Source: a virus. Taken from it: 29,464 nucleotides of DNA. Shown one piece after another: positions 17,042 through 28,242 of this stretch. Under the pieces are notes generated by a model. It saw nothing but the letters and a program-made list of their open reading frames with translations. It had not been told where the DNA came from and searched no databases. Location: positions 1-29,464 of IMG/VR virus record IMGVR_UViG_3300032249_000651, one strand, 5' to 3'. Within the stretch, counting starts at the first letter, position 1, and every line of letters starts with the position of its first letter. A program made the position numbers and the translations under genes.

Positions 17042-17426
17042 TCTTCACCACCATGATGGCGGTTTCAGGGACCAGGATGAATTCCTGGCCATCCACCGTA
17101 AAGACTTCCTTGACCCAGTTCTGCACGACCTGGTCACCACGAACAAAGACCCGCTGGCCGGGGAAGAATCCTGTGTCGCTGGCAAGGACGACGGTCAGCT
17201 CCTGCAGGTTCACCTTCTTGTCAATCATCGCGATGCCACCCTTGATGACCTTCTCGATGTTCTGCTTCGGGAATGGAGTGCAAGCGACCACTTTGTTCAT
17301 GGTCCTCACCGGAGGCATGATAGGAATCGTCGGGGTCATGTACAGCGGCGGGGTGTGAAGATTGACAGTCTTGACAGTCCCGGAGTAGAGACTGACCTTG
17401 CCGGTCGTTCCTTCGTTCTCTTTCAT
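17034..17426 (-). CDS. GroES/gp31-like co-chaperonin
   Basis: A 130-residue protein that fits the co-chaperonin fold: VVACTPFPKQN resembles the first strand of GroES, VIKGGIAMIDK (60-70) contains the GGI-x-hydrophobic mobile loop that docks on GroEL, FFPGQRVFVRGD (87-98) matches the 'PG..V' turn, and QEFILVPETAIMVV (114-127) matches the C-terminal strand as in T4 gp31 (E..LVPE..I). The first 40 residues are an N-terminal extension not seen in bacterial GroES. Phage co-chaperonins help fold the capsid protein. A matching GroEL is encoded at 22165-23976 on the other strand. The start overlaps the sigma-like gene by four bases, and GAGGAG precedes it. Confidence 0.75.
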   Translation of the reverse strand: MKENEGTTGKVSLYSGTVKTVNLHTPPLYMTPTIPIMPPVRTMNKVVACTPFPKQNIEKVIKGGIAMIDKKVNLQELTVVLASDTGFFPGQRVFVRGDQVVQNWVKEVFTVDGQEFILVPETAIMVVKNG

Positions 17427-18493
17427 TGCGGTACTCCTCTCATGCGTAGCAGCTTCTTTTCGATGAGGTCCAGCTCTTGCATCTTCGAGCGCATCACAAG
17501 GATAGCGTCTTCGTCTTCGGCCTGCAAGTCTGGCCTGGATTCTGCAGCAGCCTCGTAGCGCTCCAGAAGAGTGTCACCCTCGCCGTCAGGCATGGTCAGG
17601 TCGCCGCTCACACAAGAGCTTGCAGCCAGAAGCTCAGCAATCTCTTCAGGGTTGGTCCTGTGGGCAGGTTCCACATCCTCATTGACAGACTCTGCCATCT
17701 TGACGTAGTCGATGGTGTCGCCCATCTTGCGGCGAGCCTTGTTGGCTCGGTAAATCTTCCTTTTGTCAATGGGATAGAAGTGAATGAGCGTCTCGGAATA
17801 CTGCTCGATGCGATCGCCAATCATCCGGCCGATGGCCACTGCCCGGAAGGTCCGGTAGGCCTCCAGCTCTTCCTCCTCGGTCATCTCAGATGTGTCAGGC
17901 GGCACGAACTTGTCGATGGCCACCAAGAGACCGCCGCAGTGAATCTGCACCAGGTCCATGTAGGAGAGATGGGACTTGGGCGTGTTGGACCAGAAGATGC
18001 GAGCCTGGCTGATAGCCAAGGGCATGTTCATCTCCATGATTTCCATGCGGATTTTGTAGATTTCCTCGGCCAACTGCACAATCTTCCCGCCAATCCTGTT
18101 AGCTCGCCAGTTCCTGGCGTTCAGTACGAACAGAATGAAAGTGTAGTTGAAGTGGAACCTGTAAAGGCCCTTGTCGCTTCGCTTCTTCAGCGCCTTGCTG
18201 ATAGCGTCTGCAAACACAGCCTGGCGCTCTCGGAAGTATGGTCTTGCCGCCAGGATGTTCCTCTTCTGGTCGAGAATCATCGTCACGAACTCTCGATAGA
18301 CACTAGGTCCCCAGGGGTGCTTGATGAGGGCCTTCCGGAACTTGTCCTCTAGAGACAGCAAGAGCTTCATCTGCCGGCGCTGCCGGACCAGGAGAGTCTC
18401 CTCTGGGATAGCGTCGGCTTCGTAGCGCTTGAGGACGGCCTCAAGGTTGCCGGCGAACAGGCGGAAGTGTGTTTCGTCCTCAAAGAATGCCAT
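17423..18493 (-). CDS. Sigma-70-family-like transcription factor lacking region 4.2
   Basis: A 356-residue protein. Residues 155-235 resemble sigma-70 region 2: NMPLAISQARIFW, then LSYMDLVQIHCGGLLVAIDKF, then a segment with FRAVAIGRMIGDRI. The tail (about 260-350) is helical and acidic and lacks a recognisable region 4 helix-turn-helix; it ends with a helix like the start of region 4 (ILVMRSKMQELDLIEKKLL). The first 110 residues are a helical domain I do not recognise. It probably redirects host RNA polymerase to phage promoters, most likely late ones, since it heads the operon that runs into the packaging genes. A promoter-like TAGAAT lies six bases before its ATG. Confidence 0.7.
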   Translation of the reverse strand: MAFFEDETHFRLFAGNLEAVLKRYEADAIPEETLLVRQRRQMKLLLSLEDKFRKALIKHPWGPSVYREFVTMILDQKRNILAARPYFRERQAVFADAISKALKKRSDKGLYRFHFNYTFILFVLNARNWRANRIGGKIVQLAEEIYKIRMEIMEMNMPLAISQARIFWSNTPKSHLSYMDLVQIHCGGLLVAIDKFVPPDTSEMTEEEELEAYRTFRAVAIGRMIGDRIEQYSETLIHFYPIDKRKIYRANKARRKMGDTIDYVKMAESVNEDVEPAHRTNPEEIAELLAASSCVSGDLTMPDGEGDTLLERYEAAAESRPDLQAEDEDAILVMRSKMQELDLIEKKLLRMRGVPQ

Positions 18494-18499
18494 GCAGTA

Positions 18500-18517
18500 A
18501 TTCTAGCACGATGTCAA
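18500..18517 (-). promoter_or_regulatory. Extended -10 promoter-like site for the sigma/packaging operon
   Basis: On the minus strand TGC precedes TAGAAT (18505-18500), an extended -10 box six bases before the ATG at 18493, so the message could be leaderless. TTGACA (18517-18512) lies only six bases upstream of the -10 box, too close for a normal -35. The string around it (AAAGTGGCACTTGACA) is nearly the same as at 21522-21536, so it may instead be an operator. Confidence 0.5.
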
Positions 18518-18550
18518 GTGCCACTTTGAGGAGCTAGCGTCGTTGCTTGC

Positions 18551-18577
18551 AAAAAGACACGAACTTTACGTCTTTTT
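18551..18577. terminator. Probable weak terminator hairpin
   Basis: AAAAAGAC pairs with GTCTTTTT across an 11-base loop, with T-runs on either strand. It lies four bases downstream of the stop of the last gene of the helicase operon and just before the promoter of the sigma operon. The stem is A/T-rich and so not very stable. Confidence 0.4.
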
Positions 18578-18581
18578 GTGT

Positions 18582-18776
18582 CTAGAGCCTCGCAGTATTG
18601 GTGGCGTTCTGGATTGCAGCCTGAAGGTCGGAAGCCACGACGTAAACCATGCGACCGCCGTCGATGCTCAGTCCGACCAACTCCCGCTGGTTCCAGTGGC
18701 TCTCAACCAGCATGGGGCCTTCTCGGTTGTCGGTGTTCTCTTCGTACGTCTTCACTTCACTCTTGACTTTGATCAC
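18582..18776 (-). CDS. Small hypothetical protein
   Basis: A 64-residue protein. I place the start at GTG 18776, which has a strong GGAGG site six bases upstream; a longer frame to 18830 lacks one. It overlaps the preceding gene by 20 bases. The sequence (KVKSEVKTYEE... GLSIDGGRMVYVVASDLQAAIQNA) looks like a small alpha/beta protein. No family recognised. It is the last gene before a terminator-like hairpin. Confidence 0.55.
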   Translation of the reverse strand: MIKVKSEVKTYEENTDNREGPMLVESHWNQRELVGLSIDGGRMVYVVASDLQAAIQNATNTARL

Positions 18777-19008
18777 TGGACACCTCCAAAGGAACCTGAA
18801 TGACAGGCTCAAAGCCACCTGACACTTCAAACTGACCGAGGACTTCCAGGGTCATCCTTGCCAGGCCGCCAGCTTCGACTTCAACTTTCACCTTTCTCAC
18901 AAAGGGAATCTTCTTGCCATCCACGAACAGCTGAGCGTTGCCGCCAGTCATCAGACCGACAGCGCCTTCACGCATTCGCAGCTCGTACTTCGGGTACTCG
19001 TCGCTCAC
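18757..19008 (-). CDS. Small hypothetical protein
   Basis: An 83-residue protein starting at GTG 19008, which overlaps the helicase stop in GTGA. Beta-rich pattern (QLFVDGKKIPFVRKVKVEVEAGGLARMTLEVLG in outline), with acidic ends. It resembles small conserved phage proteins of unknown role. It is part of the helicase operon. Confidence 0.5.
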   Translation of the reverse strand: MSDEYPKYELRMREGAVGLMTGGNAQLFVDGKKIPFVRKVKVEVEAGGLARMTLEVLGQFEVSGGFEPVIQVPLEVSSDQSQE

Positions 19009-20567
19009 TCTGAACCCCAGTCGACAATTTGAACAGGCCCATAGATGTCGTCGAAAATCATCTTGCGGGCTTTGGCGTGCTTGGTCAGGATAGGGACATT
19101 CGCCACATCAAAGTCTACCACGCTGCAAGCGGTCTTCCCCGGAACCTTGCGAGTGCAACGGCCAACGCCCTGCTTGACTTCAATCTCCGACTTCCCACCC
19201 TTCAAGTAGACCATGGTCTTCACTGACCTGATATCGGTTCCAGTGCTGATGCAGCTGGTCCCAACCAGGATGGGGAACTCTCCGGCGTTGAACTGGTCGA
19301 CGAGCTTGTTGGGGTCTGACTCCCAGTACTCCCGAGGCACAGATTCGCGGTTGCCCTTGGTCTTGACGACAGGATATCCGTCTCGACCCAGAATCAGGTT
19401 TCCAAGGTCGTCGGTCTTGTAGGTCGTTGCGGTGAGTGGTCCATGGGCGAATCCTACCTTGTGATTCAGAAGAGGCAGCAGGCGAGTGAACTGCTCCACC
19501 TCGTCAATCAGAACCAACACCTGGTGTCCGAGCTGCTGTACTGACTGGTTGATGACCTCAGCCGCCTGGCGAAGCACCAGGGGGTTCTTGTAGAGGTGAA
19601 CGCGGGTCATCTCGTTGGCGTCATCAGACTGGAAGTTGCTCTCCGACCTAGTTCGAATCATCCGGAAGACAGGCTTGCTGAGAAAGCCTCCATCCACACC
19701 TTCACGCACCGTCATCGAGTAGACCGTTGGCCCAGTGATTGCATCAAGGAGCTTGTCCAGGCCATCGTTCCTCATCTGGGTAGCTGAGAAGAAGAATCGA
19801 TACGGAGCATTGGCCAAGAGGCCGGAGCAGACCTTGCTGAGGGTTGAGGCTGGACACTGATGGCTTTCGTCAGCCAGGAACACTTCAGTCTGGCTCAAGG
19901 CTTCCCAGGCCGGCGTCCCGGGTTCTACCCGAGTCAGACTCTGGGCATTGCCGATGACCACCAGCTTCTTGAAGTCTTTCTTGCCGTCATAGTAGGCCCC
20001 AACATACTTCTTGCCAAGATGCTTGACGAAGTCCTGATACAGCTGGTCTGCGATTGAGGTACTTGGTGCCATGATGACCGTCTTGAGACCCAGCTCACGG
20101 CAGATGTTCAGCAGGATGAAGCTCTTCCCAAGTCCCGTCCCCATCTCAACACGGGCATGCAGGCGGCCTAGCAAGGCCGCCTTTGCGTTTTCTTGGTAGG
20201 GGTAAGGGGTTTTGTTGGGTACCTCAGCCCAAGGCAACAGGCGAGGCTCTGGGTGCTTCACCAGGACTTCAGCGGTGAGCCCGTACTTGTTCTCCAGGTA
20301 GCTCCTCATCCCAGAAAGGACCCAGTACCTGCCATCGGGGTCCTGGTTGAGGAGACAAACCTTCTCCTGAGCCTGAAGTTCAGCCAGCTTCTTCTGGTAG
20401 GCATCCTCCCCGTGCTTGTGTCGGAACCAGTCAGCCTGCTTGTGCTTCTTCAACTCGTACTGGACCTTCTTGTCACGGTAGGTGAGGTTTTCTTTCACCT
20501 CATTGAGTCGAATTCCGTGGAGGTCATCGATGTGAAGCTTGAGGGGTGTCGTCAGAGTGAGCTTCAA
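19005..20567 (-). CDS. SF2 DNA helicase (UvsW-like)
   Basis: A 520-residue helicase. Motif I is GTGLGKS (143-149), motif II is DESH (233-236), motif III SAT (261-263), motif V includes GTSCISTGTDI (436-446) and motif VI QGVGRCTR (466-473). The first 120 residues form a substrate-binding domain unlike the core. The set fits the phage UvsW/DEXH group, which unwinds recombination and replication intermediates. The start is TTG at 20567, overlapping the previous stop as TTGA. A 35-residue polar insert at about 382-418 is unusual between the two RecA-like lobes. Motifs are complete, so it should be active. Confidence 0.88.
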   Translation of the reverse strand: MKLTLTTPLKLHIDDLHGIRLNEVKENLTYRDKKVQYELKKHKQADWFRHKHGEDAYQKKLAELQAQEKVCLLNQDPDGRYWVLSGMRSYLENKYGLTAEVLVKHPEPRLLPWAEVPNKTPYPYQENAKAALLGRLHARVEMGTGLGKSFILLNICRELGLKTVIMAPSTSIADQLYQDFVKHLGKKYVGAYYDGKKDFKKLVVIGNAQSLTRVEPGTPAWEALSQTEVFLADESHQCPASTLSKVCSGLLANAPYRFFFSATQMRNDGLDKLLDAITGPTVYSMTVREGVDGGFLSKPVFRMIRTRSESNFQSDDANEMTRVHLYKNPLVLRQAAEVINQSVQQLGHQVLVLIDEVEQFTRLLPLLNHKVGFAHGPLTATTYKTDDLGNLILGRDGYPVVKTKGNRESVPREYWESDPNKLVDQFNAGEFPILVGTSCISTGTDIRSVKTMVYLKGGKSEIEVKQGVGRCTRKVPGKTACSVVDFDVANVPILTKHAKARKMIFDDIYGPVQIVDWGSE

Positions 20568-21139
20568 CGGAAAATCCTGGCCTTGACCATCAGGAGACGT
20601 TGGTCTGTCGTTCCAAAAATCGGCACAACCTTCTGATTCAACTCGTCATCTTCGTGGATGAGTCGCGTGATGAGGTTGTCAATGTCCTTGCTCTGGCTCT
20701 CGTCGTGAATTCTGTTTGGGTCTGGCTGGTCATTCCAGCCTCGGTGGAATGGATGAGCGTAGAAGCTTGCAGTGGTGATTGCCTTGCTCCTCCGGTACAT
20801 GTCGAGGACATCTCCACGTTTACGGCATTGAGGACTCATGTAAAGTACCGCATTTACAGGTGAGCTGTCACTGATGATGAAGACCTTCGGTCCACAGGCC
20901 TTCACCAGAAGCTCATCCAGCTCCAGTTGGATTCTCATGATTTCGACCTGGTCGTCATCTGTCAGAACGAGCTTGTCGTCAGGACCAAAGCCCCACAGAA
21001 CACGTTGCTTGGCGATGTACAGACGGGCCTGTTCCACAGAGAACTCAGAGACAAGACCAACTTCCTTAAGAGAAGCAAAGGCCATGGCTGCCGTGGTAGT
21101 CTTGCCTGACTGAGGTGAACCGATGAAGTTGAAGAGCAC
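20564..21139 (-). CDS. P-loop NTPase (AAA/NadR-kinase-like)
   Basis: A 191-residue protein with Walker A GSPQSGKT (7-14) and a Walker B-like strand VFIISDSS (86-93). SEFSVEQARLYI after the first helix resembles the 'PEYAREY' segment of NadR-like/AAA_28 ATPases; the partner or substrate is unknown. GTG start at 21139 without a ribosome site; TAAACT lies six bases upstream, as in the other close TAnnnT/start pairs. It heads the leftward helicase operon and is the first gene left of the repeat region. Confidence 0.65.
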   Translation of the reverse strand: MLFNFIGSPQSGKTTTAAMAFASLKEVGLVSEFSVEQARLYIAKQRVLWGFGPDDKLVLTDDDQVEIMRIQLELDELLVKACGPKVFIISDSSPVNAVLYMSPQCRKRGDVLDMYRRSKAITTASFYAHPFHRGWNDQPDPNRIHDESQSKDIDNLITRLIHEDDELNQKVVPIFGTTDQRLLMVKARIFR

Positions 21140-21310
21140 GCAAGAAGTTTACCACGGCCTGACTTCCGGGGTCCAGGACCGGGCGCGAAGCGAAAATTTT
21201 CCATCGATCGATTCCCGGCCGCATAAGAAATGCTTACTTCAAATCTCTGAAGTGCAAATTCAACTCATGTATTCACTACATATCTAAACATGTAATGAAG
21301 CGCTCTCGCG

Positions 21311-21543
21311 TAGCGACCGTGAACGGCATTTGACAGCCACGCACCCAAAAAAGCCGGTGTCAAATGCCATTCTGGACTGCTTCGTGAACGGCATTTGACA
21401 CCCTAGCGACCGTGAACGGCATTTAGGACAGGGGGCCACTCAACCTGCTTATGGGTCTTCAGTTATTTTAGGTACTTACAAAAAGGTGTAGCTGTCAAAT
21501 GCCGTTCACGGTCGCTAGGCCAAAGTGGCATTTGACGGCCACT
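21311..21543. repeat. Six direct/inverted copies of a GTGAACGGCATTTGACA-type repeat
   Basis: Plus-oriented copies are at 21311-21338, 21383-21402, 21403-21424 (tail altered to ATTTAGGACAG) and 21525-21542. Inverted copies are at 21356-21368 and 21492-21519. The first and the 21492-21519 copies are 27-base perfect inverted repeats of each other. The 11-base core GGCATTTGACA occurs in four or five copies. Neighbouring opposite copies can form hairpins. The last copy also contains the -35 box of the next gene. Confidence 0.85.
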
Positions 21544-21561
21544 CTCACTTGAGACTAGAAT
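21532..21561 (+). promoter_or_regulatory. Sigma-70-like promoter, leaderless type
   Basis: TTGACG (21532-21537) and TAGAAT (21556-21561) are 18 bases apart; ATG follows five bases later at 21567. The -35 box is embedded in the last repeat copy, flanked by the small inverted repeat AGTGGC/GCCACT (21524-21543), so binding of a protein to the repeat could block it. Confidence 0.6.
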
Positions 21562-21566
21562 CCCTC

Positions 21567-22163
21567 ATGAGCAGCAGCAACGTCATCTACGGTCTCGTGG
21601 ATCCAAAAACAAAGCAACTTCGATACGTAGGAGCTAGCCAGGGTGACCCTTCCGCTAGAATCCAACAGCATCTATGTCCCAGTGTTTTGAGACAAAAAAA
21701 CGACAAAAGCCGCTGGCTCAATCAGCTGAACACTGAAGGTCTGCGGCCAGAGTGGATTGTCATTCAGACGCTCCAAGACCCTGAAATCTTGAGCCAAGCA
21801 GAGAGGTTCTGGACTACATACTTCAGAACCATGGGCTGCCCTTTGACGAACTCATACGCGAGTGGCCCGGCTTTTTCGGTTCGCCATCGACAGAACCTGG
21901 CGATTGCACGGCTCACCAGAAGCGCTGGCCATCGCCAGGTTCTGCTGCAACTCTTGGCCTCAGACGCACATGCCACCGATCTTGATTTGGGGCAACGAAT
22001 GGGCCTGAAACCGAGGATGGTTCGGAAGCACCTTAAAGAACTCCGCGACAGTGGTATGATTACTGCAAGTGTCAAGCGCCATCTCGTCAACGGCCAGAAG
22101 TGGATGAACCACAGAACCATCGTTGTGACTTCTGAAGGACTCAAAAGAATCAAGGGGTGTTGA
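21567..22163 (+). CDS. GIY-YIG nuclease fused to a winged-helix domain
   Basis: A 198-residue protein; I use ATG 21567 because the longer GTG start at 21525 lies inside the promoter. Residues 5-95 match a GIY-YIG domain: VIYGLVDP (Y8), RYVGAS (Y20-V-G22), R31 and the metal-binding E79 in AERFW. Residues 122-195 look like a winged helix-turn-helix (helix LGQRMGLKPRMVRKHLKEL, then a beta wing). GIY-YIG enzymes cut DNA; homing or repair types are common in phages. The fused DNA-binding domain could direct it to the adjacent repeats or give autoregulation. It is the first gene of the rightward operon. Confidence 0.75.
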   Translation: MSSSNVIYGLVDPKTKQLRYVGASQGDPSARIQQHLCPSVLRQKNDKSRWLNQLNTEGLRPEWIVIQTLQDPEILSQAERFWTTYFRTMGCPLTNSYASGPAFSVRHRQNLAIARLTRSAGHRQVLLQLLASDAHATDLDLGQRMGLKPRMVRKHLKELRDSGMITASVKRHLVNGQKWMNHRTIVVTSEGLKRIKGC

Positions 22164-22164
22164 T

Positions 22165-23976
22165 ATGCAATACGCAAAGGTGAAGTCGGTCAGCAAGGAG
22201 ATTCTCAGCAGGGGGCCAACGCTCCAGAAGCTGATTCTCCAGACGATGAAGACCTGTTCTGATGTCGTGGGGTCCACTCTGGGTCCTGGCGGCATGTCGG
22301 TCGTCATTGAGCGCCAGGAAGAGCGCCTGCCTCCGATGATTACCAAGGACGGTGTAACGGTCTTCAAGAACTTGGGATTCGACAACGCCTCTCAGCAGGT
22401 CATCATGGAAGCTGCCAGAGACGCTTCCGTTCGCACTGCAGCTGAAGCTGGCGACGGAACCACCACTGCGACCATCCTCGCAGAAGCTCTGGTCCGGCAT
22501 ACCATGGAGTTCTGCGAGGCCAATCCCAAGGTCTCCCCTCAGCGGGTTGTTCGCACCCTAGAGAAGGGTTTCAAGTCTGTCGTCGAGCCTTGGATTCGCA
22601 AGAACGTCTACAAGGCCGACCTGGGGACTGAAGGTGGTCGCTATCGTCTCCGGTCTGTCGCCAAGGTCTCGGCAAACGGTGATACCCAGCTGGCCGATGC
22701 CGTGCTGGAGTGCTTCGACCTCTGTGGTGACGAGGGCAACGTGACTCTTATCGAGGCGTCGGGTCCGAGCGGGTACGAGGTGGAGCACCTTGAGGGGTAC
22801 CCTATCTCGGCCGGCTACGAGGAAAGCTGTGGGAAGTTCTACCAGGCCTTCATCAATGACCCGGGTCGTCAGATTTGCGCCCTGAACAAGCCCCAGTACG
22901 TGCTCTACCATGGACGTCTCGCGGACATCTACACCGCCCTGACCCTCTTCGAGAAGATCGGCGAAGCATCTGCCCAGGGCCTTTGTAGCCACAATGCCGT
23001 CTTCGTGGCAACTGGCTTCTCCGAGACGGTGCTGGCCCACCTGGCGACCAACTTCCAGGACCCACGCACCCCCAACATCTACCCCCTCGTGGCACCCATG
23101 AGCCCTATGTCGACTGGCCAGTACGACTTTCTGGCGGACTTGGCTGGCATCACGGGAGGTCACATCTTCGACCCCCTCAACGCTCCGCTGGAGAATGCTG
23201 AGCTGTCTCAGCTGGGGACCAGTGACACATTCGAGGCTGCACGGTTCCGTTCCACTGTCCTGGGTTTCCGTGACGAGCTGTTGATTCTGGAGCGTGTCGA
23301 CCAGCTGAAGCAGCTCCTGGCCAGTGGGTCCCTTTCGATGCAGGGCACCAGCATCGTCCAGGAGCGTCTGGGCAAAATCACCGGCGGAATCGCTAAGCTG
23401 AAAATCATCGGAGCTTCTGCTGGTGAGCTTCGTGAGAAGCGCGACCGTGCCGAAGACGCCATCTGCGCTGTCCGTGGCGCCCTGAAGCATGGCACCCTCC
23501 CCGCCGGTGGCTGGGCTCTCCTCAAGCTTCGCGAGCACATCGACTACTTGGAACAGGGTGACCACGGCCTTTCGGCTTCGGAGGTGGAAATTCTTCAGCG
23601 GGTTCTTGGGACCTCCTTGAAGGTGCCTGTTGATCGCCTTTTCACGAACGCCGGCTACACTGAGCAAGAGCGCGACGACGCCATCGTTGCAATCCTCGCT
23701 CCATCCGAGCCCTACTCCCCGGTCGGTCAGGACGATGTCCTCGTCTTCGACCTGCTTGAGGGCAAGCTCGTCGACTGCTTTGCTGGAGGCCTGCTCGACA
23801 GCACCCCAGCCGTCCTTGAGGCCATCAGGAATTCCATCAGCATCGCTTCCCTTCTGGGCACCTGTGGTGGTACAGTAGTCTTCAAGAGAGACCTGAGCCT
23901 TGAACGACAAGACGCCCGAGACAACAACGAATTCCTCCGAAACGCCAACGTCAACGAAGCCGACGAACGCCCCTGA
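22165..23976 (+). CDS. GroEL-like chaperonin (Hsp60)
   Basis: A 603-residue chaperonin subunit, somewhat longer than GroEL (about 548). ATP-site residues are preserved: GSTLGPGG (36-43, but KGR of bacterial GroEL replaced by GG), KDGVTV (D62, GroEL D52), AGDGTTTAT (D97, GroEL D87) and D431 in AEDAICAVRGAL (GroEL D398), followed by LPAGGWALLKL as in VAGGG. The C-terminus lacks the GGM repeat and ends in a charged tail. Phages such as EL and OBP encode their own chaperonins for folding virion proteins. Starts one base after the GIY-YIG stop, with AAGGGG upstream. The matching co-chaperonin is at 17034. Confidence 0.93.
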   Translation: MQYAKVKSVSKEILSRGPTLQKLILQTMKTCSDVVGSTLGPGGMSVVIERQEERLPPMITKDGVTVFKNLGFDNASQQVIMEAARDASVRTAAEAGDGTTTATILAEALVRHTMEFCEANPKVSPQRVVRTLEKGFKSVVEPWIRKNVYKADLGTEGGRYRLRSVAKVSANGDTQLADAVLECFDLCGDEGNVTLIEASGPSGYEVEHLEGYPISAGYEESCGKFYQAFINDPGRQICALNKPQYVLYHGRLADIYTALTLFEKIGEASAQGLCSHNAVFVATGFSETVLAHLATNFQDPRTPNIYPLVAPMSPMSTGQYDFLADLAGITGGHIFDPLNAPLENAELSQLGTSDTFEAARFRSTVLGFRDELLILERVDQLKQLLASGSLSMQGTSIVQERLGKITGGIAKLKIIGASAGELREKRDRAEDAICAVRGALKHGTLPAGGWALLKLREHIDYLEQGDHGLSASEVEILQRVLGTSLKVPVDRLFTNAGYTEQERDDAIVAILAPSEPYSPVGQDDVLVFDLLEGKLVDCFAGGLLDSTPAVLEAIRNSISIASLLGTCGGTVVFKRDLSLERQDARDNNEFLRNANVNEADERP

Positions 23977-24733
23977 AGTCGGCTACACCGCTTGCTGGAA
24001 GCTCGTCTCATCGGGACGTTGCAGGAAGCCAGCAGGCCACGATGGCGACCATGCAGGCGTACACTTCCACGGAGACAGGCACCACACGTGGAAGCTGGAT
24101 TGGCCAGGTAACTACTGCACCACCTGTGGATACGGCGACCCGTTGGAGTCTGACAACGCTCTCGTCGATTGTCTGAAGTGCAAAGGCACGGGGTTCATCG
24201 ATTGCGGTCACATAGGTGTTGAGGGATGCTGGGAGTGCCACGGTACGGGCTGCTCTCTGAATCCGAATCTGGAATATCAAGCTTGTCCCGGTAAGCCATT
24301 TGTAATCTTCCTTGACTTCGATGGAGTACTTCATCCTGTCGGTGAAAACGGTGAGGGCCTTTTCCAGCACGCCAAGAAGCTTCGAGAGGTACTCCTGAAG
24401 TACCCCTGCACCTACGTCGTCATCCACAGTAGCTGGCGGATGACGAGCATGTACACTGAAGAGGACCTATGGGGCTATCTGGACATGGAAGATGATCTCC
24501 GGTCTCGATATCTAGGCACCACCCCCATCTCGGAGCCATCCCGATGGGAGTCCATCAAGGCCTGGATGAAAGAGCGACCCTATACGGGAGAGTACGCCAT
24601 TCTTGACGACATGTTCAGTAGCTTCGACCATGAAGCTCGGTGGAAGCTTATCTGCCCAGCGTACGACGTCGGCATGCAGCCAGGCGACTGGGAAGAGCTG
24701 GAACGGAGGATTGATGCCCATCTACAATCTTGA
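23900..24733 (+). CDS. Zinc-finger / DnaJ-type CxxCxGxG / HAD-like phosphatase fusion
   Basis: A 277-residue protein starting at TTG 23900, overlapping the chaperonin gene by 77 bases; no later start keeps the conserved N-terminal Cys/His region. Residues 30-63 hold a Cys/His cluster (C32, C41, H47, H51, H55). Residues 73-118 resemble the DnaJ central zinc domain: CTTC, CLKCKGTG (91-98) and CWECHGTG (110-117), though with two rather than four CxxCxGxG repeats. Residues 133-277 are HAD-like: FLDFDGVLH (D139, D141), HSSWR (S177) and ILDDM (D236, D237), as in phosphatase/RNA-repair type HADs. Substrate unknown. Its position after GroEL suggests a folding link, but that is inference. Confidence 0.7.
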   Translation: MNDKTPETTTNSSETPTSTKPTNAPEVGYTACWKLVSSGRCRKPAGHDGDHAGVHFHGDRHHTWKLDWPGNYCTTCGYGDPLESDNALVDCLKCKGTGFIDCGHIGVEGCWECHGTGCSLNPNLEYQACPGKPFVIFLDFDGVLHPVGENGEGLFQHAKKLREVLLKYPCTYVVIHSSWRMTSMYTEEDLWGYLDMEDDLRSRYLGTTPISEPSRWESIKAWMKERPYTGEYAILDDMFSSFDHEARWKLICPAYDVGMQPGDWEELERRIDAHLQS

Positions 24734-24965: not shown

Positions 24966-26890
24966 TGGTCCGCTTGCAGTGGCTGAAGCTCCGTGCCTTC
25001 CGGAGCTTCGCTGAAGAGGCCAAGGTAGAGTTCCCTCCCAATGGGCTTCTTCTCATTCGTGGGAAGAATCTATCCAACCAAGACCCCAGCGGAACAGGTA
25101 AGTCGACTGTCATGTTGGCCGTGGCGTACGCCCTGGACATCTGCCCTTTTCCGGCGACCGAGCTTCAGAGTTGGCTGACGGAAGAGCCCATGCAGGTCCA
25201 GTTGGGTCTGGAGACCTCCGAGGGGCCCGTTGTCATTAGTCGTGGCAAGAAGAGCAGCCTGAAGGTCGGTGAAAAGACCGTGACCAGCGCTAAAGCCATC
25301 GCTGAAGAGCTTCGGCGTATCTTTGGTCTGGACTCGGAGACTCTCCGGGCAATCACGTATCGCGCCCAGAATACCCAGGGCTTGTTTTTGAGTCTTGGCG
25401 ACAGCGAGAAAAAGGAGTTTCTCACCCGGCTGCTGGGGCTGACGAACATTGAGACGGCCGTCGACCAGGCTGAGGATCGAATCAAGAGCCTCAAGCCGGC
25501 GCTTGAGAGCGCAGAGGCGGTTGTCGCCTCCAGCCTCCAGGAACTACAAACCCTTCAGGCGCAGGAGTTCCCTCAACTGGAAGATACCTCCGGTCTCAAG
25601 GCCGAGTTCCAGGAGCTGTGGAAGAAGAAGACCGAGTTGACCCAACGTGCCTCCGAGATTGAGAGCCAGGCGACCGGCAAAAAGATGGAGGTCAAGGACC
25701 ACCCAGAACTCATCAAGCTGAACGGCTACATCAACGCAGCCAAGGCTCAGTACGAGGTAGCCCTGGAAGCTCAGCAGGTTCGAGAGAGGGAGTTCCGCTC
25801 CAACCAGGAGGTCCTTCGAAAGAAGCTGACCGACATCGCTCAAAGAGACACGATGATTCTCAACTACCGAAAGGAGATTGAGGGGTATCGAAATCACATT
25901 GTCAAGCTCACGGCTGGACATTGCCCCACCTGCAATCAGGCCTGGAGCGACGCCCAGGCTAAAGCGAAGGCTGTAGAGGCGCAGGTCGAGAACCTAGAGG
26001 CAACTGTCAGCTCTTTGTCTCGACAGCAGAGTGACCGGCAACGTCTTGAGGCTGAGCTTCGGGTGAACTTCAGCTCTGACCCAAACGTCGAGAAGCTTCG
26101 CGGCCTGAAGACACAGCTGGAGATGCAGCTGCAGGAGAAGACTCAAGCACTCGTGTTCTCGTCCACCCAGGAGCTACAGGCGGCTCTCAGTGCTGTCAGG
26201 TCGGAACTTGAGTCAGTCCAAGTCCGGCTGGGGAGCGTCAATCAGCAAATCATGATGGTCGAGCAGATGAACGCGAAGCTCCTCCAGGCTCGGCGCTTTG
26301 CTGAGAGCAACATCTCCGCTGTGAAGACCAAGCTCGAAGCGGCACAGCTCAAGGTGAAGGAGCACAGCCTCGCCGTCAACGCTGAGCGTGACTTCGTGTC
26401 CATGATGGGTCGTGAAGGCTTCCTTGGTGTCATTTTTGATGACATCCTGAAGGAGATTGAGGCGGAGGCGAATGAGCGGTTGGCCCGACTCGCCAACGTC
26501 TCTCACGTGACCATCAACTTCAAGTCTGAGGTGACCACTGGTAAGGGTACCGTCAAGCGAAGCATCACCCCAGTGGTATCAGTCAACGGCCAGGAGGCCA
26601 AGCTCGATTCAGGCCTCAGCGGAGGCATGTACACCAGCGTGGAAGGTCAGGTCGACCTTGCTGTGATGGCGGTGGTTCAGCGTCGGACCGGCGCACTTCC
26701 TGGGTTCCTATTCTTGGACGAGAGCTTCAATGGCCAGGGCAACGTCACCAAGGAGGCGACCATGGAGGTCTTGCGTGAGTACGCCCAGGAGAAGCTCGTG
26801 GTGGTAATCGACCACAACTCCGAATTCAAGGAATTATTTTCTACTTTCATAGACGTAATCTATGAAAATGGGAGATCATCCATAAAATGA
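24965..26890 (+). CDS. SbcC/Rad50/gp46-like SMC-type ATPase
   Basis: A 641-residue protein. Walker A is PSGTGKST (41-48). Long coiled coils (about 165-310 and 330-490) flank a zinc hook CPTC (320-323). The signature LSGG is at 551-554 and Walker B FLFLDE at 581-586. It bridges DNA ends and controls the SbcD/gp47 nuclease; the partner is encoded at 15858 on the other strand. T4-type recombination-dependent replication uses this pair. The length is near T4 gp46 rather than the much longer bacterial SbcC. Starts at ATG 24965, one base overlap with the zinc-ribbon gene. Confidence 0.92.
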   Translation: MVRLQWLKLRAFRSFAEEAKVEFPPNGLLLIRGKNLSNQDPSGTGKSTVMLAVAYALDICPFPATELQSWLTEEPMQVQLGLETSEGPVVISRGKKSSLKVGEKTVTSAKAIAEELRRIFGLDSETLRAITYRAQNTQGLFLSLGDSEKKEFLTRLLGLTNIETAVDQAEDRIKSLKPALESAEAVVASSLQELQTLQAQEFPQLEDTSGLKAEFQELWKKKTELTQRASEIESQATGKKMEVKDHPELIKLNGYINAAKAQYEVALEAQQVREREFRSNQEVLRKKLTDIAQRDTMILNYRKEIEGYRNHIVKLTAGHCPTCNQAWSDAQAKAKAVEAQVENLEATVSSLSRQQSDRQRLEAELRVNFSSDPNVEKLRGLKTQLEMQLQEKTQALVFSSTQELQAALSAVRSELESVQVRLGSVNQQIMMVEQMNAKLLQARRFAESNISAVKTKLEAAQLKVKEHSLAVNAERDFVSMMGREGFLGVIFDDILKEIEAEANERLARLANVSHVTINFKSEVTTGKGTVKRSITPVVSVNGQEAKLDSGLSGGMYTSVEGQVDLAVMAVVQRRTGALPGFLFLDESFNGQGNVTKEATMEVLREYAQEKLVVVIDHNSEFKELFSTFIDVIYENGRSSIK

Positions 26891-27351
26891 AAACTTGCAA
26901 CTGTTGTAAGAAGGAAAAGGCGGCCAACGAGTTCCACAAGAACAAAAGAGAGTCTGACGGCCTATCGAACAGGTGTACCGCATGCCAGAAAGCTGCGGCT
27001 GCAGACTACTACCGAAGAAACAAAGACCTTGTTGCGGCGAAGTCGAAGTCGTACTACAAGGCCAATTCAGAAAAGATCAAAGAGCGAACCAGCTTCTACT
27101 GGACTGAACGAAACACCGGTGTTGGAAGGGAAGAGTACATGGCAAAAGCAGAGGCACAGGGGTTCAAGTGCGCCATCTGCTTTACCGTAGACCCCAAGCG
27201 CAGACTGGCAGCAGATCATGACCACAAGACGGGCAAAGCCCGAGGTCTTCTTTGTAGGGACTGTAACCAGGTCCTAGGGAAGTTCAACGACGATCCAGAC
27301 AGGTTCGTTCGTGCAGCCAACTACATCAAGCAGTACTCGGAGATTGCATGA
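26887..27351 (+). CDS. Endonuclease VII-like HNH nuclease with N-terminal zinc module
   Basis: A 154-residue protein. Residues 4-33 form a zinc module (C4, C7, C30, C33, with FH at 16-17). Residues 93-127 are the recombination endonuclease VII signature: CAIC (95-98), DHDHKTG (110-116) and RGLLCRDCN (119-127). T4 gp49 of this family resolves branched DNA before packaging. It overlaps the SbcC gene by four bases, fitting a recombination operon. The N-terminal module is shared with the small gene at 2636, as seen in free-standing homing nucleases, so a mobile origin is possible. Confidence 0.85.
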   Translation: MKTCNCCKKEKAANEFHKNKRESDGLSNRCTACQKAAAADYYRRNKDLVAAKSKSYYKANSEKIKERTSFYWTERNTGVGREEYMAKAEAQGFKCAICFTVDPKRRLAADHDHKTGKARGLLCRDCNQVLGKFNDDPDRFVRAANYIKQYSEIA

Positions 27352-27533
27352 ACGTCAAGCACCCCAAGAAGATCTGGAAGATTCGTCATGGTGACAACGG
27401 GTTCTACCTGGTAGACCTCTCAGGCGAGACGGTAGAGGCAAGCCCCTCTCTCCGGCCGCTTGTTGCCATCGCCTGGAATCGTGGAGCAGACGAGGTGGTT
27501 CACGACTACGATTGCTCAAAATACGGCATTTGA
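27348..27533 (+). CDS. Small hypothetical protein
   Basis: A 61-residue protein overlapping the upstream gene by four bases (ATGA). The sequence (KIWKIRHGDNGFYLVDLSGETVEASP...) suggests a small beta-rich domain. It ends inside the -35 region of the next promoter. No family recognised. Confidence 0.5.
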   Translation: MNVKHPKKIWKIRHGDNGFYLVDLSGETVEASPSLRPLVAIAWNRGADEVVHDYDCSKYGI

Positions 27534-27557
27534 CGCAAATCTCACATCTGGTAGAAT
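27530..27557 (+). promoter_or_regulatory. Sigma-70-like promoter
   Basis: TTGACG (27530-27535) and TAGAAT (27552-27557) are 16 bases apart. The sequence in front of the -35 box, CGGCATTTGACG, matches the core of the intergenic repeats at 21311-21543. Unlike the others in the window, this promoter is followed by a normal leader with an AAGGAG site. Confidence 0.65.
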
Positions 27558-27583: not shown

Positions 27584-27862
27584 ATGGGACGCGGAGCAAA
27601 GAAGAAGGGCAAGTTCGATGACCTCGACTTGGAGTTCAAGAGCAACATCGAGAACATGACCGAGGAGGAAATCAAGCGGCGGATCTCCGAGGTGGCAATC
27701 GCTGAGCACGAGAACCGAGAGGCCAAGAGCAAGGACCAGGACCTGGCCGACAAGGTGGCGGCGGTGAAGTTCGCCTCTGAGCAGTACCGAGAGGCAACCA
27801 AGATGAACAAGCTGCGTATCGCCTACGCTCACTTCATCCTCGAAGCTCGCGGAAAGGTCTGA
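27584..27862 (+). CDS. Small hypothetical helical protein
   Basis: A 92-residue protein starting at ATG 27584 after AAAGGAGAA. Starts MGRGAKKKGKFDDLDLEF, then mostly Glu/Lys/Ala helices suited to a coiled coil. Its stop overlaps the next start by one base. First gene of a unit with a promoter at 27530. No family recognised. Confidence 0.6.
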   Translation: MGRGAKKKGKFDDLDLEFKSNIENMTEEEIKRRISEVAIAEHENREAKSKDQDLADKVAAVKFASEQYREATKMNKLRIAYAHFILEARGKV

Positions 27863-28242
27863 TGTCTGCTGATGAAGAGGTGATGCCTCTCATCACGCCT
27901 ACCAAGGCAACACTGGACCGGTACGGCCTAAGCTACGAAGAGTGGCGTCGTATGGCCGACGAACAGAAAGAGGCGTGCTTCGTGTGCGAGCAAAGGCCCA
28001 AGAAGGGCCGGCTCTGTATCGACCATGAGCATGTCAAGAACTGGAAGAAAATGCCACCTGAGTATCGCAAGCTCTTCGTACGGGGCTTGCTTTGCTTTCG
28101 TTGCAACACAACCTTTGTAGGCCGTGGAGTCACCATCGAGAGGTCCGAACAGGTTGTTCGCTACCTCAAGCTCTACGCCGCTCGTCGGATTGACCCGACG
28201 ACCGTACAACCGCTCAAGAAGAGCAAGGGAAAGAAGAAATGA
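27862..28242 (+). CDS. Second endonuclease VII-like HNH protein
   Basis: A 126-residue protein. The YGLSYEEWRRM start is typical of endonuclease VII relatives. The core is CFVC (39-42), LCIDHEHVK (51-59) and RGLLCFRCN (74-82), so all metal and catalytic positions are present. The tail is basic (KKSKGKKK). It probably cuts branched DNA or acts as a homing nuclease; a second copy beside the one at 26887 suggests different roles. It overlaps the ribonucleotide reductase start by four bases. Confidence 0.8.
   Translation: MSADEEVMPLITPTKATLDRYGLSYEEWRRMADEQKEACFVCEQRPKKGRLCIDHEHVKNWKKMPPEYRKLFVRGLLCFRCNTTFVGRGVTIERSEQVVRYLKLYAARRIDPTTVQPLKKSKGKKK

Follow-up and report, generated by a model that had tools for sequence, protein, structure and literature searches.

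How does a phage come to encode a nuclease domain joined to a DNA-binding domain beside a set of short repeats, and what might such a protein do there? The question arises from a 29,464-nucleotide stretch of viral DNA, analysed here at its full length and called the window, in which an initial annotation had noted a GIY-YIG nuclease with a winged helix next to its likely binding repeats. The window is a tailed-phage fragment: terminase and portal genes occupy the minus strand, and the plus strand has genes for a GroEL-like chaperonin and SbcC-like genes. Among its named relatives, the best sequenced is Myxococcus phage Mx1 (GroEL 52% and terminase 45% identical). The locus itself is a divergent gap between a leftward P-loop/helicase/sigma-like group of genes and the rightward GroEL group (Table 1).

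Table 1. Positions in the window of the fusion gene, its parts, its promoter and the predicted operator cores, with the outlying site and the gene next to it.
Feature	Position	Strand	Remarks
GIY-YIG/winged-helix fusion gene	21567..22163	+	198 aa from the ATG; stop codon included
GIY-YIG nuclease domain, residues 1-98	21567..21860	+	catalytic Y8, Y20, R31, H35, E79, N95
Low-confidence linker, residues 99-104; junction around F103	21861..21878	+	
Long helix (105-132) and winged helix (138-187)	21879..22160	+	resident regulator; stand-alone protein in G001, G002
Promoter TTGACG-18 nt-TAGAAT	21532..21561	+	-35 inside last repeat (21527 core)
CACTTGAGA, probable remnant of ancestral TTG start	21546..21554	+	in frame; CACTTGAAA in G001, G002
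Operator core GGCATTTGACA	21325..21335	+	predicted
Operator core GGCATTTGACA	21358..21368	-	predicted
Operator core GGCATTTGACA	21390..21400	+	predicted
Degenerate operator core GGCATTTAGGA	21418..21428	+	predicted
Operator core GGCATTTGACA	21493..21503	-	predicted
Operator core GGCATTTGACG, with -35 of fusion gene	21527..21537	+	predicted
Outlying operator core GGCACTTGACA	18512..18522	-	sigma-like gene promoter (TAGAAT, then ATG 18493); five phages
RNA polymerase sigma-factor-like gene	17423..18493	-	phrog_351, E 5e-7; Mx1 homologue annotated putative sigma factor

The open reading frame present in the window runs from 21525 to 22163 on the plus strand, and the residue numbers first given for the nuclease (Y8, YVG, R31, E79) match translation from the ATG at 21567, not from the GTG at 21525. 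The initial annotation had placed the promoter within the last repeat copy; the best-scoring element, the top of three promoter-like matches within 18400-22200, indeed has its -35 hexamer there. Because the predicted transcription start coincides with the ATG, the fusion mRNA would be leaderless. There is no in-frame ATG, GTG or TTG from about 21860 up to the helix-turn-helix, and therefore a product of the gene that contains only the winged helix-turn-helix (wHTH) is unlikely. The fusion is known from one metagenomic contig, in searches from which near-identical records may have been hidden.

Sequence profile and predicted fold agree with the cutting domain first described, and together they give good support to the view that the N-terminal half is an I-TevI-like GIY-YIG domain. 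The residues Y8, Y20-V-G22, R31, H35, E79 and N95 are intact, the fusion protein scores 110 bits against a profile made from 17 relatives, and residues 4-98 of its AlphaFold model (pLDDT 89) can be superposed on 1ln0, the catalytic domain of I-TevI, with Z 10.8 and an rmsd of 2.4 over 86 residues. The Pfam model PF01541 does not match the fusion protein, even at E 10; this model, which serves to detect the superfamily and does not define it, finds just 9 of the 23 members of the GIY-YIG set at E 0.01. The winged helix, which is all that Pfam detects in the fusion protein, occupies residues 105-197: HTH_24 scores above its cut-off at residues 126-166, within the DNA-reading domain originally placed at 122-195, and in structure comparison residues 100-198 of the model resemble the PadR, MarR and CggR regulators. 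A NUMOD3-like reading of the first helix of this part (SxxHRQNLAxAR) has no Pfam support and was set aside, as were generic PADLOC matches between the winged helix and CARF-linked HTH domains.

Searching viral contigs with the full protein returned no relative; relatives were reached via the neighbouring GroEL and terminase. The GroEL search led to two phage contigs, G001 (168.9 kb) and G002 (168.6 kb), each of which encodes at the same place a stand-alone winged-helix protein, with no nuclease and in one copy per genome, that is 54-55% (G001) or 51-52% (G002) identical to the C-terminal half of the window's protein. Both flanks of the fusion gene are collinear with these two genomes, and the same 17-bp sites lie upstream of the stand-alone regulator in both. 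Because a tree of concatenated GroEL, terminase and helicase sequences joins G001 to the window and Mx1 to G002 (support 0.955), the nuclease-free state is, by parsimony, the older one. We set aside the reverse history, an ancestral fusion with loss in the relatives, as it would need two precise losses. At the same position Mx1 itself has a small winged-helix-like protein, weakly similar (hhalign E 2e-4, probability 46%), and the repeats upstream of its gene differ from those in the window; a tblastn search of named phages for winged-helix relatives found none. Since the window is a fragment, the rest of this phage's genome may encode another regulator.

The repeats in the gap are real, as first reported: five of the six core copies match perfectly or with a single mismatch, and the copy at 21418 is degenerate. 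When the whole 169-kb genomes of G001 and G002 are scanned for the core GGCAYTTRRCA, each yields seven exact matches (a reversed-pattern control gave 0), all in the divergent gap except one per genome, which lies at the sigma-like gene. The 23 sites align as one 17-bp motif with sharp borders, from -6 to +10. They occur in both orientations and some contain TTAACA or TTAGCA, and thus they are not simply -35 boxes. In G001 and G002, judging by eye, the last copy likewise carries a TTGACA upstream of the regulator start. The conserved site at the sigma-like gene, 2.5-2.8 kb from the array, is immediately upstream of a TAGAAT or TACAAT -10 element and the ATG, and it is kept in five phages, including L009 and L010; the sigma-factor-like gene is likely a second target of the regulator. 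An isolated match at 27525-27535 (GGCATTTGACG), close to where a small gene begins, is not conserved in G001 or G002 and was treated as background.

At the level of sequence, this array and its overlap with the promoter have the anatomy of an autoregulated operator array. Because the nuclease-free relatives keep both the winged helix and the repeats, and the cores are nearly confined to the gap, the winged helix is probably a resident, self-repressing regulator and the repeats its likely operators; it is the linkage between the two that points to the winged helix as the binder of the array. Two of the functions first proposed for the protein, that it binds the repeats and that it controls itself, thus gain strong comparative support, as winged helix and repeats occur together in the same linkage in relatives without the nuclease.

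The nuclease domain has a different origin. We collected 23 relatives of it from viral contigs, and in Pfam scans of 22 of these most have NUMOD3, NUMOD1 or I-HmuI-NUMOD tails, while a wHTH model of the window's kind matches the window protein and none of the 22. The two nearest kin belong to phages of the same group and join the window in a weakly supported clade (90/89). The GIY-YIG gene of L032 separates two genes that adjoin each other in both G001 and G002, and that of G001 (at 87.9 kb) is inserted at a place that is contiguous in G002; because the closest kin are clean insertions with empty sites in relatives, the comparison identifies this as a mobile, freestanding, homing-type family. 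Even at the DNA level the window's domain resembles that of L032 (77% over 92 nt, E 1e-12). The GIY-YIG segment, present in the window and absent from the same place in G001 and G002, sits in frame within the 5′ end of the regulator gene: the probable start remnant lies upstream in the same frame (CACTTGARA; shuffle p about 0.0025), and after the nuclease domain the regulator sequence picks up again at F-S-x-x-HRQN. A scan of bacterial genomes for the GIY-YIG domain gave one match only, and viral matches found with Foldseek include GIY-YIG proteins of similar length. These results divide two further expectations of the initial annotation. Homologues near repeats are found for the winged helix, but the relatives of the nuclease half are located elsewhere and have no such array beside them; and of the proposed homing nuclease tied to this locus, the mobile homing-type family stands, but the domain is here fused to a resident regulator.

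What might such a fusion do? The steps that we infer are operator binding, repression, cutting, spread and self-protection. The winged-helix regulator of an Mx1-like virus would bind a 17-bp operator that is arrayed in the gap and recurs once at the sigma-like gene, and would repress its own promoter. The catalytic domain of a freestanding homing-type GIY-YIG endonuclease would then have been inserted in frame behind the regulator's first codons, giving a nuclease addressed to the phage's own operator, in which binding brings the GIY-YIG domain near the operators. Most likely the fusion would still regulate, and in a mixed infection it would cut or nick near the operators of relatives that lack it; repair of the break from the fusion-bearing phage would spread the fused allele, or the rival would simply be damaged. 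On balance we lean towards this reading, in which GIY-YIG capture has produced an operator-addressed nuclease that still regulates and that cuts or nicks the DNA of relatives in mixed infections. More tentatively, the phage's own regulator may have become a regulator-guided homing nuclease that cuts the arrays of co-infecting relatives, making the locus a drive element or weapon. The phage's own operators are intact, and therefore self-cutting must be avoided somehow. CNNNG near the repeats is below the shuffled expectation in the window (10 versus 15.4), but it is similarly low in G001, which lacks the fusion (10 versus 14.7), and we rejected this depletion as an uninformative sign of self-protection.

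We favour a nuclease guided by the regulator because two known proteins, I-TevI and Odn, offer parallels. I-TevI of phage T4 is both nuclease and autorepressor: it binds an operator over its own promoter and avoids self-cutting there because this operator lacks a well-placed cleavage motif (PMC2988022). The window's GIY-YIG domain shares its catalytic fold and residues; however, I-TevI is intron-encoded and binds through an extended zinc-finger, minor-groove and HTH region, whereas the fusion contains a whole resident regulator and has a predicted operator array and a likely second target gene. Odn (Gp88), from Vibrio phage ICP1, has captured a sequence-specific DNA-binding domain and combines it with a GIY-YIG domain of the homing type; it targets intergenic repeats and cuts DNA at them, in a conflict between genetic elements (PMC8263062). 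The window's protein would likewise be a repeat-directed chimera of a homing-type GIY-YIG domain. The binding domain of Odn, however, is of the satellite replication-initiator kind, and Odn attacks the satellite, while the binding domain of the window's protein is the phage's own syntenic regulator, fused in place, and its target would be relatives or the phage itself. Furthermore, the catalytic mutant of Odn is E180A, and so its nuclease domain is not N-terminal, unlike that of the fusion. The nearest kin of the nuclease half are freestanding Seg-like GIY-YIG endonucleases with NUMOD3/NUMOD1 tails; the fusion differs from these in having no NUMOD or I-TevI-type tail and in not being freestanding.

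An alternative to a working regulator-guided nuclease, unlikely in our estimate though the strongest of those we weighed, is that the fusion is only the old autorepressor, with the nuclease a silent or decaying passenger or an aid to DNA contact. In its favour, the regulator is conserved, and so are its operators and their overlap with the promoter; a live nuclease directed against its own operators would be costly. The GIY-YIG branch of the window is also long in the tree (1.44, versus 0.15-0.22 in its nearest kin), which fits either rapid adaptation or early decay, and two otherwise invariant positions are altered (T83 and S99), which together with the long branch could mean that the nuclease is decaying. 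Yet the frame is still open, and despite an overall identity to the nearest kin of about 50% all the key catalytic residues and most of the invariant positions have been kept; the structure prediction also gives an I-TevI fold with high confidence.

The proposal that the protein nicks the region to start replication fares worse. It would make the winged helix an origin binder and the repeats iterons, with the nuclease nicking the origin or, as Odn does, cutting the origins of rivals. Intergenic repeats beside a small winged-helix gene would suit an origin, and the stand-alone protein is weakly similar to O-like and other phage replication initiators (phrog_678, E 2.6e-5), but such winged helices are common in regulators too. 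In a test that is weak in phages, cumulative GC skew, G001 and G002 show no origin-like minimum at the locus, and a conserved site lies outside any such origin, at the distant sigma-like promoter. As relatives lack the nuclease, nicking cannot be a basic origin step; we consider an origin improbable and find no support for the nicking proposal. Still less probable is an ordinary freestanding homing endonuclease that uses the winged helix and lies near the repeats by chance: the GIY-YIG domain is from a homing-type family, but in two relatives the winged helix is a syntenic resident gene that stands with the repeats where the nuclease is absent. Slightly weaker again is an assembly artefact joining two metagenome sequences, to which the single contig might point; against it are the in-frame 198-aa reading frame with a new ATG and a fitting -10, the flanks collinear with G001 and G002, and a joint that falls within the gene at a sensible domain boundary. 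Finally, we give almost no credence to a methyladenine-dependent (type IV) restriction enzyme like the Acholeplasma wH-GIY-YIG fusions, which recognise methylated GATC and combine the same two domain types (PMC11037411), since in these bacterial enzymes (Ahi29725I and Apa233I) the winged helix is N-terminal, while the fusion has a C-terminal wHTH that belongs to a resident phage protein and sits with a specific operator array.

GIY-YIG nucleases, winged-helix repressors, autorepression by I-TevI and chimeras of the Odn type are already known; capture of a GIY-YIG domain by a phage's own regulator beside its operators is undescribed in the open-access literature that we searched (subscription journals were outside its scope). 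A Caulobacter paper on XRE and GIY-YIG was rejected as a precedent, as the genes there are separate. If the fusion cuts as well as regulates, the phage may carry a nuclease aimed at the control region of its relatives, and the birth of a site-directed nuclease via domain capture could be followed with donor family, recipient gene, nuclease-free relatives and likely targets visible together in one small phage group. This would make it testable how homing nucleases acquire new targets, and whether a regulator can turn into a nuclease that is selfish or competitive while keeping its day job. Odn is a chimeric GIY-YIG precedent, and capture by a phage's own regulator would extend the scope to conflict among related phages.

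The control DNA of the locus has other features. The 14 bases upstream of several sites are near-identical inside any one genome (the window has TAGCGACCG and G001 has TAGCGTCCC) and differ between genomes; in the window the likeness is seen in the stretches 21311-21335, 21404-21424 and 21497-21519. Copies of the site thus seem to be homogenised inside each phage. The sequence AACATGTAAWGAAGCGCTCTCGCGTAGCG at 21287-21315 is almost unchanged across the window, G001 and G002, amid surroundings that are far less conserved, and is probably control DNA of the leftward genes. A more distant relative has in the same gap three near-exact copies of an AT-rich palindromic unit of ~75 nt (L008:7260-7640), flanked by a pair of identical strong promoters that face inward (TTGACA-16-TATAAT); that gap showed no winged-helix gene. 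In G001 an endonuclease VII-like HNH gene (L006:7621-8019) lies between the winged-helix gene and GroEL, and therefore a mobile nuclease of a second kind has invaded the locus. The window has two such endonuclease VII-like HNH genes close to each other downstream of the SbcC-like gene (26887-27351 and 27862-28242), and the gene at 23900-24733 encodes a HAD_SAK_2 phosphatase-like domain after a cysteine-rich, zinc-ribbon-like N-terminal part.
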